From Thraustochytrium sp. TN22 (Eukaryota > Sar > Bigyra > Thraustochytrida > Thraustochytriidae): DNA of 64,000 nucleotides. The notes under the pieces are model-generated. The model saw nothing but the letters and a program-made list of their open reading frames with translations. It was not told where the DNA came from and ran no database searches. Shown piece after piece: positions 59,372 through 64,000 of this stretch. The stretch covers positions 46,372 to 110,371 of the forward strand of contig JABLUY010000119.1 of NCBI GenBank assembly GCA_013306675.1, given 5' to 3'. The first letter of the stretch is position 1; every line of letters begins with the position of its first letter. The translations under genes were made by a program, and so were the position numbers.

Positions 59372-60707
59372 GGCGGTGGCGAAGGACTACGATGCCACGC
59401 CACCGGGCGAGCAGCCACGCCACCGAGCAAGCGAGCTCGAGCGAGCGCAATGCCGGCGCCAACCGGGGTGCGCTCTGCCGCGGGCCGCGCCGGCACGTGC
59501 GCCCTGATCCCGTCTCGAGGTGACTTGTGGCTTCGAGTTCAAGCCTTGTGCTGACCATGATTGCAAGTGAGCTTGGCCGCTATGTTTTTTCGCACACTTC
59601 AACGGATCCTTGTTCTACGATCCGCCATGGCCAGTACCGGGCTAGCGTCGCGCTCACTACTAATCAATGCACTTGAAGGCGATGCTGAGATAAAATGCGA
59701 GACAAACGTGGAAGGCGCAAAAAAGGGGGATCTGAGACGAGAGGCAATACACGCAGCTCAGCTCCCACGACAAACAAACACGATGTCGCAGTTCACCCTC
59801 AGCGCGCTCATGTTTTCCAAAGGCGATGCGGAGGACGTAAGCGAGACAAACAAAGAAGGTGATCACGGAAGCGCTATGCACTCTTGCGACTTGACACAGA
59901 CTGAGGGAGATGGCGAAGATCAACAGCTTCCACTTCGATGCTGCAGCAAAGCAGAGCCTCACCGCTTCTTGTGCGATGCGAATCACAAAAGTGCCCTGCA
60001 GCTCTTGCGACTTGACACAGACTGAGTGCCATGGCGAAGATCAGCAGCTTCCACTTCGATGCGGAGAGCAAAGCAAAGCCTCGCGGCTTCTTATGCTCGT
60101 GCTACTTCTCATGCTCGTACCCCACCTTTCATGCTCATGCTCGCATCGCTGCTCATGCTCATGCTCGCACCGCTTCTCATGGTTGCACCGAGTCTTATGC
60201 TCGCACGCGTGTATGCTTGCGCACCGGCAGTGGCAGGCGTCTTGACCCTTCAGGCGGGCCCTTTGCACGAGCTCGACTCGCCACGCTCGCCACGCTGTCT
60301 TGGCCGCCGCCGCCGCTGCTGCTGCTGCTAGTGATAACAGCTGGCCAGGTACTTCTAATCAGTAGCCAAGGCTCGCCCGCGGCAGACTTCCTTCCGGGCT
60401 CTCTCTGCACCGCCGCCACCGGCGTGGCAGTGACGTGCGCCGCGAGCGGAGTATAGTCACCCTCCCGGGCTGTGCGCTCGAGCTCGGAGAGCAAAGCAAA
60501 GAAAGCCGACCTCCAAACTAAGCCGCGCGTGGCGGCGGCGGCGGCGGCGGCGTTCACGTGCAGCGCTGACGTGAGTCGCTGACGAGCGGCCCGCCTCACG
60601 TTGAAGTTCGCCTTGCACGCATCTTCTCGCACAAGTTCTCTCACAAGTTCTCATCCTCTCGAGTCAACAGGCTCATCTTTACTTATGTCACACAGCGTTT
60701 TGCCACA
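59372..60707. other. Repeat-rich spacer
   Basis: Contains a weaker pair of GGCGATG...GCGAGACAAAC(G/A) repeats (~59671 and ~59821), a ~94-bp direct repeat, a CATGCTC-rich microsatellite-like zone (60090-60205) and a GGC/GCC array near 60530-60553. Open frames (for example 59561-60025) consist mainly of these repeats and are not called. Confidence 0.55.
59881..60095 (+). repeat. ~94-bp imperfect direct repeat
   Basis: Copy 1 at 59881-59974 and copy 2 at 60002-60095, both beginning CTCTTGCGACTTGACACAGA and both containing CAGCTTCCACTTCGATGC and an AGCCTC(A/G)C.GCTTCTT end. Offset is 121 bp and most positions agree. Confidence 0.88.
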
Positions 60708-61595
60708 TCATGCAGCGGCGAGATCGAGCACGCGGAAAAGCACAGAAGCGGGCAGCGGCACGCCCTCGGGCTTGAGAATGTGGAGAGACTGTTCCGAAGC
60801 CTTGTCGAGCACAACGTGAACGACGCCGTCGAGCAGTGACTCCTCGTGTCGTGTCGGGTCGCGGACGAGCTGCACGTCGCTGTCCGGGCCGGAGCGAAAG
60901 AGACCAAAGGAATGGGCAACAGGGTCAACGAGCATGGTGAGCGGATCGGAGGAGCCCTTGCCGTCCTCTGTGTCGACGATGACGAGCGGCGAGTGCGGGT
61001 CGTCGGCATTCTCCCGCTCCAAGGCAGGCAGGCGCAGCTCGCGCACCGCGACGCAGAGCGCGTCGACGGCCGCGTCGCGCACGCCGCCGTCGTTGGCCAG
61101 GCAGCAGACGTCGGCGCAGAGCACCATGCACTCGGAGCCCTCGGCAATGCAGAGCTGCTCGAGGTCCACCATGAGGCGCAGAAGACCGCGCAGGTGCGTC
61201 GCAAGCTCCGAGGGGTCCGCGTCCAGGCCAGACACGGTGACGTCGACCCAGCCCTTGTCCGGCGCGGCGCTCAGCGGGGCGCCCACGAGCACGCGAATGC
61301 CGCAAACCACCCAGGTCCCGCCCATGCGCACGCTGGAAGAGGCGTCCACCGATCCAAGGCCGGCGGTCGAAGGGCCGTCCACGGCCGTCTCGCCGTCCGC
61401 GGCGGCGTCCGCGTCGCCCTCGTCGCGCAGCCAATCGCCAGCGCGCTCGCGGCGGCGGGCCTCTAGCCTCGCGCGCCCGTCCGGCCGCACGCCATGATCC
61501 AGCAGCCGCTCGTAGAAGGCGCGCGGGTGCAGCTGGCTCAGGGCGTCCGCCGCCTGCACGGCGCCCTGGCCCGCGTCCTCTGCCGCCTCCGTCAT
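60708..61595 (-). CDS. Exosome RNase PH-fold subunit, RRP43/EXOSC8-like
   Basis: A 295-residue protein from ATG 61595. It begins with the RRP43-type N-terminus LHPRAFYERLLDHGVRPDGR. A non-conserved acidic insert follows, then DASSSVRMGGTWVVCGIRVLVG, the RNase PH-fold strand pair (usually SALVKLGNTTVICGIKAE). Later parts include VDLEQLCIAEGSECMVLCADVCCLANDGGVRDAAVDALCVAV and SLLDGVVHVVLD, typical of the second half of the fold. In the eukaryotic exosome this subunit is catalytically inert and helps form the hexameric ring for 3'-5' RNA decay. RRP42 (EXOSC7) is the main alternative. Confidence 0.82.
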   Translation of the reverse strand: MTEAAEDAGQGAVQAADALSQLHPRAFYERLLDHGVRPDGRARLEARRRERAGDWLRDEGDADAAADGETAVDGPSTAGLGSVDASSSVRMGGTWVVCGIRVLVGAPLSAAPDKGWVDVTVSGLDADPSELATHLRGLLRLMVDLEQLCIAEGSECMVLCADVCCLANDGGVRDAAVDALCVAVRELRLPALERENADDPHSPLVIVDTEDGKGSSDPLTMLVDPVAHSFGLFRSGPDSDVQLVRDPTRHEESLLDGVVHVVLDKASEQSLHILKPEGVPLPASVLFRVLDLAAA

Positions 61596-62135: not shown

Positions 62136-63853
62136 TCAGAGAGCGTCCTCGTCCTCAGGTTCGTCCTCAAGGCCGCGCTTGGACCTGCGCTTGCTGGAGC
62201 CGAAGCCGAGAGACCTGGAGATGCTGCGGGAGAGCTTGTGCTTGGAGGCGAGCATGGAGTTGTACTGGCGGTCCAAGTACGGCTGGTTGTGGTGGTAGGT
62301 GGCCGGCAAGCTGAACATGGCGACGAAGAGCACGAAGAGCGCCACGTCGAGGGGCAGCGGCGAGAACAGGTACGACACGAAGCGCAGGCTCATGAGAATC
62401 TTCGTCGGGGAGCCCTCGCGCACGACCGTGTTCCAGCGTGAGAAGAGGTAGGTTGTGCTGCGCTGCGTGACCTCGGCGGCACGCTGCACGACCTCGTCGC
62501 TGAGCAGCGCACCCTGCATGACGAAGACGGTGGCATCAAAAGACGCGCCCACCAAATGCATCCTGCGCAGCATGGGCGCGGCCTTGACGACAAAAGTCGT
62601 GATGAGGATCTGCATCATAAGAAGGTAGGAGCCAAGCGTGAGCAGCGAGTAGCCCGCGCCGTGCGTGAGGAAGAAGATGAGACAGCCCACGGAGAACCAA
62701 AGGAAAGTGCGCAGCGGGTTCTTCCAGAGCAGCAGCTCGCTGAGGTGGCCGTACTCGTCGAGGCCCGGGATGGTGCGCTTGACGGCGCGCGCCTTCTTCT
62801 CCGCGGCGGGCGGCGGCGAGGCGGCGCGCGCGCGCGCCGCGCGCTGCGCAGCCTGCTTGCTCGCCTGCTGCTCCTTGTGCAACGCCAAGTAGCGCTGCAA
62901 GTCGGTGGCAAGCACGGTGATGTTGTCCTCCGAGCCGCGCGAGTAGGCGATGTAGACCAGCTCCTTGACAGCCTCCTGCAGGTGGCGGCCGGGCTCGTCG
63001 CCGTCCATGTCGCGATCGCGCATCTCGCAGATCACCTCGCCGGCCTCGCCGTTCGTCACGTCGTCCCACAGCCCGTCGCTGGCCATGACCACGTAGGACG
63101 ACTCTGGTGAAATGCGGCCGCTCTTGATCTCGGGCTGCGCCGTGACGTATGGCTTGAAGTGCGCATCGCCCAGCGCACGCGTGACGGCCAGACCGCCCAC
63201 CTCGTCCGAAAAGACGCGGTACGTGTCGTTCTCGTGATCGTACTCGACGTGGCCGCCGGCCTCCGTGACACGCGCGCGCTCATCGCGGCGGTCCGGTTTG
63301 TGGTCGTGGCTCAGAGCCTCCACGGTTCCGTCTTTGTTGACCAGCACGGCGCGCGAGTCGCCGGCCGCCGCCAGGTAGTACTCGGAGTCCTTCAGCAGCA
63401 GCACCGTGGCCGTCGACCCGTCGTCGATGTCCATTTTGAGCGCGAACTCGCAGTAGTCGTCATCAATCTCCTGGAACGCGCGCTCTAGCGCGCGCTTGGG
63501 CGCGTCGCCCATCTGCAGGTTGCCGCTCACGCGCGCCAGCAGCTTCTCCTGCAGGTACTGCGAGCACGTATCGCCGCCGTGGCCGTCATACACAGCCAGG
63601 AGCACGAAGTCCTCCGTCACCAGCGTCGCGCTGGCGTCCTCCATCCCACTGCGTCGCCGCACCGCCGTCAGTCCTCCTGCGCTGCTCCTCGCCGCGCGGG
63701 CCGGTACGGCCCGCACCCCTGGCCGTCCGTACCTCGCTCGTCGGCCCCCGCCTCGCCTCGCCTCGCCTCGCCTCGCCTCGCCTCGGCGCGAAGTCGCGAG
63801 GCAACTTACTCTCTCCTGCCCTGGTACTCCACGACGCCGAAGAGCCCCTTCAT
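62136..63853 (-). CDS. PP2C-type phosphatase fused to a reticulon-like domain, two exons
   Basis: Exon 1 is 63810-63853 and exon 2 is 62136-63648. Splicing gives MKGLFGVVEYQGRRDGMEDA and 518 residues. Residues 1-~265 are a PPM/PP2C Ser/Thr phosphatase: GMEDA, VYDGHGG (Asp36), DSRAVLVNKDG, VTRALGD, MASDGLWDDVTN and EDNITVL, so the metal-binding aspartates are kept. After a basic linker, about 319-480 resembles a reticulon domain: LLLWKNPLR, a long hydrophobic hairpin, a ~70-residue loop (VVQRAAEVTQRSTTYLFSRW...), a second hairpin (FSPLPLDVALFVLFVAMFSLPATY), then YLDRQYN. The tail is basic then acidic. I infer a phosphatase held in curved ER membrane. I know of no family with this architecture. 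Confidence 0.87.
63649..63809 (-). other. Intron of the PP2C-reticulon gene, 161 nt
   Basis: GTAAGT donor (63804-63809 on minus) and GCGACGCAG acceptor (ending 63649). Splicing produces QGRRDGMEDA, the expected PP2C N-terminal motif, from a GA|T codon. The intron holds the CCTCG array at about 63747-63785. Confidence 0.9.
63747..63785. repeat. CCTCG pentamer array in intron
   Basis: About seven CCTCG/CTCGC units inside the PP2C-reticulon intron. The same pentamer occurs at 54343-54410. Confidence 0.85.
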
Positions 63854-64000
63854 GTTGCCGCGCTCCCCCTCCTCCTCGTCCTCCTCGTCCTCCTCGCCGT
63901 GCGGCACGTGCACGCCGGCGGTGGCGGCGCCCGCCGGCGCGCGGCGCGCGCGCGCGAGCGGCGAGCGAGCGAGCGAGCGAGACTGCCAAGCGAGTGCGGT
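63854..64000. other. Upstream of the PP2C-reticulon gene
   Basis: Contains a GAGGAG/GAC tract that is open in frame with exon 1 (EEDEEDEEEGERGN before the ATG) and a GAGC repeat at 63957-63980. No earlier in-frame ATG is visible before the window ends, so an N-terminal extension cannot be excluded. Confidence 0.5.

Follow-up and report, generated by a model that had tools for sequence, protein, structure and literature searches.

The window, which is the whole 64,000-nucleotide stretch of Thraustochytrium sp. TN22 DNA that was analyzed, is the end of a contig (C21) in a 37.9-Mb genome. A gene of two exons is present on its minus strand at 63853..62136, and the spliced product is 518 amino acids (aa) in length. 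Exon 1 (63810..63853, minus strand), with its ATG at 63853..63851, encodes MKGLFGVVEYQGRR and then contributes two bases to an Asp codon. The intron (63649..63809, minus strand) is 161 nt long, runs from GTAAGT to GCAG, and has a branch-like CTGAC that starts 23 nt before the intron end. Exon 2, including the stop codon (62136..63648, minus strand), contains most of a PP2C domain and the whole of a reticulon domain without interruption. Several donor and acceptor pairs leave the frame open; the 63809/63649 pair was chosen among them because it has the GTAAGT donor and restores FGVVEYQGRRDGMEDA, which we take to be the usual PP2C start. The original prediction of a spliced gene joining PP2C to a reticulon-like segment was right in coordinates and content, and when PF00481 and PF02453 were run on the 518-aa product with HMMER, both domains scored above the curated cut-offs.

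The reading frame of exon 1 continues open through the 147 bases that separate the ATG from the contig end, so the N-terminus could be longer and the true start may lie beyond the contig. An acidic stretch, GEEDEEDEEEGERGN, is encoded in this open frame upstream of the exon-1 ATG (63810..64000, minus strand). On this strand, the next gene detected (60711-61595, minus strand) belongs to the RNase PH family, with PF01138 and PF03725 both above cut-off, and perhaps encodes an exosome subunit. At about 59600-60100, the near-identical peptides AKINSFHFDA and AKISSFHFDA are repeated across overlapping frames in what looks like a diverged repeat array.

The PP2C and reticulon domains

The PP2C domain occupies aa 6-258 (62919..63838, minus strand, a span that includes the intron). 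It matched PF00481 with 172 bits (E = 2.5e-50) in the Pfam search of the spliced protein, against a cut-off of 20.3 and over profile positions 4-255 of 255, and a second PP2C model overlapped the same region with 30.8 bits. Residues E18/D19, D36/G37/H38, D112, D206, and D256 are all present; of these, E18/D19, D36, D112, D206, and D256 presumably have metal-binding or catalytic roles. The motifs RxxxED, DGHGG, GDSR, DGLWD, and DN, which we take to be the metal and catalytic motifs of PP2C, are every one kept. Among PDB entries, 58 distinct sequences matched at E<=0.001, all of them within the PP2C part; plant ABI/HAB phosphatases ranked first, followed by PPM1K and PPM1A. The claim of an apparently active PP2C was thus borne out at the level of motifs, and the domain is predicted to be a catalytically active phosphatase.

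Following the PP2C domain is a reticulon homology domain at aa 318-478 (62259..62741, minus strand). The spliced protein matched PF02453 with 59.8 bits (E = 3.8e-16; cut-off, 31.8) over positions 2-155 of the 157 in the profile, and the score in the genome search was 63.3 bits. Six copies of aa 301-518 were shuffled segment by segment, which preserves the hydropathy layout. None of the 6 gave a Reticulon match at E<=1, which argues that the match is not a composition effect; in 2 of the 6, a single weak match to an unrelated family was seen, scoring under that family's cut-off. The reticulon part alone had no PDB matches at E<=1. By curated profiles and gene anatomy, then, what had been described as a reticulon-like segment after PP2C is a true reticulon domain in the same frame. 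The model for RETREG1-3, PF24456, overlaps this region with 23.9 bits in the spliced protein and 26.4 bits in the genome search, where the PP2C-reticulon gene was the sole match to the RETREG profile in the genome; both scores are below the cut-off of 27, and membership in RETREG/FAM134 was rejected.

Two long hydrophobic stretches were seen in the KD-15 profile, one at aa 326-376 (62565..62717, minus strand) and the other at aa 432-467 (62292..62399, minus strand). The loop between them is 55 residues by this profile rather than the approximately 70 given originally, and 51 residues separate the second stretch from the C-terminus. The C-terminal tail (aa 479-518; 62139..62258, minus strand) has a basic Ser/Arg part and then an acidic end. 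A structure model was made from the exon-2 protein (502 aa) by single-sequence AlphaFold2, with no alignment, and was of low confidence (mean pLDDT 42.9, pTM 0.23). In this low-confidence model, broken helix pairs were placed at aa 326-377 and 429-494 (full-length numbering), with breaks at about 345-349 (GAGYS) and 443-447 (FSPLP), an arrangement compatible with two hairpins.

Related genes in the same genome

A profile search with PF02453 identified 4 reticulon loci in the genome, all above cut-off, and none in 14 control genomes. The three loci other than the window gene are C415:194-670 (L001), C396:93175-93696 (L003), and C18:8611-9102 (L004), and the two-stretch hydrophobic layout is common to them. 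The C415 locus encodes a 204-aa reticulon, the frame of which is open to the end of its own contig. No PP2C match was found at E<=1 in the C415, C396, and C18 frames (204, 292, and 295 aa as searched); fusion to PP2C was therefore seen in 1 of the 4 loci, and upstream exons of the other three may exist. By pairwise phmmer, the window reticulon was nearest to that of C18 (47.1 bits), followed by C415 (27.0 bits), with no match to C396. The reticulon of L003 has a long charged C-terminal part (1339-2214 of that locus, minus strand) with weak apolipoprotein- and phasin-like matches, the Apolipoprotein score being 20.9 bits, far under the cut-off of 90; this part is perhaps a lipid-binding amphipathic helix. 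According to the available portion of a 2022 survey, stramenopiles have most likely lost reticulons (PMC9804665). The four profile-supported loci argue against such a loss for thraustochytrids.

At least 44 stretches of the genome matched PP2C, a number that is a lower bound for the family. The PP2C domain of the window is closest to that of C8 (42% identity), then to that of C394 (39%). In a tree of the window PP2C and 12 loci of its own genome, chosen among those fetched and with long branches flagged, the window sequence joined C394 (94/88) and then C8 (84/86), and no branch was at the starred level. Placement in the animal PPM1L clade was rejected, as the tree contained PP2Cs of this genome only, had no starred branch, and had long branches. 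The C8 paralogue (L021, C8:96938-97750) has an N-terminal hydrophobic segment (frame residues 64-96) ahead of its PP2C domain, which we take to be a PPM1L-like layout. No such segment was detected in the 741-aa frame of the C394 paralogue. The simplest history would be that a PP2C acquired a reticulon tail within this lineage.

Pattern scans of the viral_contigs collection gave 56 matches with the full protein and 4 with the reticulon part, and a scan of genome_contigs with the reticulon part gave 55; none of these was confirmed. Both collections are viral or prokaryotic, so the lack of confirmed matches is uninformative for other thraustochytrids. In the same genome, a 3044-aa frame at C124:26703-41142 matched the PfaA family with 2539.7 bits together with its neighbours (cut-off, 1010.1). 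Beside it is a divergently oriented 2083-aa frame that matches this family more weakly, and the head-to-head PfaA-type pair presumably represents the thraustochytrid PUFA synthase layout, which points to a labyrinthulomycete stramenopile as the most likely source of the genome.

Membrane anchoring and its alternatives

The arrangement of the two domains makes it likely that the gene product is one membrane-anchored Ser/Thr phosphatase for which the reticulon serves as a tether. The N-terminal PP2C (PPM) domain would be the enzyme, connected by the linker to the reticulon homology domain. The two hydrophobic stretches would lie in the ER membrane, leaving both ends of the protein cytosolic, a location and topology expected from the reticulon family. 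The reticulon would thereby keep the phosphatase at the cytosolic face of the ER, where PP2C could strip phosphates from ER-surface proteins, and association with other reticulons would perhaps enrich the protein on tubules and sheet edges. Its substrates and any preference for curvature are suppositions, as is the dephosphorylation on curved ER that was originally proposed.

An explanation of another kind is that separate PP2C and reticulon genes, or an assembly join, merely appear fused in the contig. The location of the gene at the contig end would fit such an explanation, as would the GC-rich, Ala/Arg/Pro-rich linker (aa 259-317; 62742..62918, minus strand; net charge +7 over aa 267-316), in which all three minus-strand frames are open. 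Because all three are open, the open linker frame is weak evidence of one protein and was rejected as evidence of fusion; the missing ATG is stronger. The linker has no ATG in any frame, and the interval between 63008 (residue 229) and 62618 (residue 359) likewise has none in the three minus-strand frames; a reticulon made separately would thus lack its own start. The two parts are moreover joined inside exon 2 in the same frame, and a false join would need that frame to have been kept by chance. The GTRAG donor-like sites in the gene are at 63809 and, within PP2C, at 63530 (GTGAGC), exon 2 being otherwise without such a site, and GC3 is similar on either side of the join (PP2C, 0.90; linker, 0.98; reticulon, 0.90). 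Two genes or a faulty join are thus very improbable; the locus is most probably one gene, read from its sequence as encoding PP2C and reticulon in a single polypeptide. There is likewise little chance that the PP2C domain is a pseudophosphatase, acting on the ER as an inactive binding module. Its region at aa 149-167 is longer in the alignment than in the two closest paralogues (L021 and L022), but L010 is even longer there in the same alignment, and the presumed metal and catalytic motif residues are kept.

The remaining explanations are refinements of the anchored phosphatase, not alternatives to it. In one, for which the chances are a little short of even, the reticulon is a generic ER anchor only, and the protein would be a counterpart of PPM1L that neither senses nor bends the membrane. 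As the available portions of the sources describe, Arabidopsis RTN19 and RTN20 are found on the ER and cause no constriction (PMC5797236, PMC7973432), so a reticulon domain can be a mere anchor (PMC5797236), and RTN17, which has long disordered ends, is also without constriction (PMC13332829). The C8 paralogue, with its one N-terminal hydrophobic segment, makes varied anchors in this PP2C group plausible. A C-terminal amphipathic helix has been tied to tubule constriction by plant reticulons in the parts available of PMC7973432 and PMC5797236; the possible helix here (aa 478-495) had a best moment of 0.43, equalled by 12% of 5000 shuffles and so not clearly above them. However, the reticulon profile is matched nearly end to end, and RTN17, an extended reticulon that is described as a scaffold rather than a shaper, is still on curved ER despite its lack of constriction (PMC13332829, in part). 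The other refinement, which we consider doubtful, is that the phosphatase dephosphorylates the loops or tails of reticulons, either in cis or in partner reticulons, and thereby sets their oligomerisation, ER shape, or ER-phagy. CAMK2B phosphorylates FAM134B in the linker that separates its hairpins, which promotes oligomerisation and ER fragmentation, and FAM134B/C are under the control of CK2 sites (available portions of PMC7049802 and PMC11747952, respectively). The Ser/Arg-rich tail would suit such a role, and the window gene alone matched the RETREG profile in the genome search, although at 26.4 bits it was under the cut-off of 27. LIR-like four-letter motifs, of which the 518-aa protein has 10, were too frequent to serve as evidence of ER-phagy and were rejected.

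Known systems and significance

The anchored phosphatase can be compared with several proteins in which its elements occur apart. PPM1L (PP2C epsilon) has an N-terminal transmembrane anchor and no known reticulon domain, and the FAM134B/RETREG receptors have no known catalytic domain. PPM1L resembles the window protein in being an ER-held enzyme of the PP2C family with a substrate on the cytosolic side; with VAPA, it dephosphorylates CERT (PMC7057175, in part). In yeast, cortical ER inheritance is altered when the PP2C Ptc1 is lost (PMC10269544, in part). In FAM134B/RETREG proteins, phosphorylation sets how the reticulon homology domain functions (PMC7049802, PMC11747952, both in part), whereas the match of the window protein to their profile was under the cut-off. 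In Arabidopsis RTN19 and RTN20, a soluble enzyme domain is N-terminal to the reticulon and the protein is on the ER, but the enzyme is a sterol dehydrogenase/decarboxylase (3BETAHSD/D) rather than a phosphatase, and the organisms are plants rather than stramenopiles (available portion of PMC5797236). The reticulon-like hairpin protein Arl6IP1 recruits INPP5K, a phosphatase, to tubules of the ER; in contrast to the window protein, this pair works in trans, the enzyme is an inositol 5-phosphatase, and the system is described in some metazoa only (PMC9804665, in part). Among stramenopiles, 8 of the 29 PPMs of Phytophthora sojae carry an accessory domain, one being a PPM1 with a PH domain, although the accessory domains named in the part of the source available are kinase, CAP, PH, CBS, and FHA (PMC10925823); "reticulon" is absent from the main text of that paper.

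Among the papers listed in literature searches, no title or start of an abstract described a PP2C-reticulon protein; this does not prove absence, and sequence databases may hold the architecture uncommented. The two papers containing both "protein phosphatase 2c" and "reticulon domain" concerned, by title, Trypanosoma cruzi antigens and rice proteomes. The gene is real, and what appears to be new is the combination of known parts and the lineage; enzyme-reticulon fusions (RTN19/20) and an ER-resident PP2C (PPM1L) are already known. If our reading of an anchored phosphatase is true, a protein phosphatase would be held on the ER, perhaps on curved ER, within a single polypeptide, which would be a hard-wired form of what animals achieve through recruitment (Arl6IP1-INPP5K) or through a simple anchor (PPM1L). 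Reticulon-type ER-phagy receptors are controlled by phosphorylation, and a fused eraser would give a handle on the dephosphorylation side; in text searches, "dephosphorylat" was absent from PMC7049802, and both it and "phosphatase" were absent from PMC11747952. Plain reticulons in a thraustochytrid would also be of note given the published view of stramenopile loss (PMC9804665, in part).

A bolder possibility, which we consider unlikely, is a lineage-specific ER-shaping phosphatase, in which the reticulon would place the PP2C, and curvature or oligomerisation would perhaps gate it, as it removes phosphates from reticulons, REEPs, or lipid-transfer proteins. Such a protein would couple ER shape and phosphorylation in one molecule and might serve thraustochytrid-specific membranes, for example the ER-linked bothrosome and ectoplasmic net. 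In Aurantiochytrium limacinum, the bothrosome was described as connected with the ER by the available portion of a proteome study (PMC12221091), and neither "phosphatase" nor "reticulon" occurs in the main text of that study, which gives the bothrosome idea no support.

The REEP/TB2 family is represented in the genome by 11 stretches, 10 of them over the cut-off. An 882-aa open frame at C452:103465-104208 has two TB2/DP1/HVA22 (REEP-type) matches, a double-REEP layout that seems unusual.
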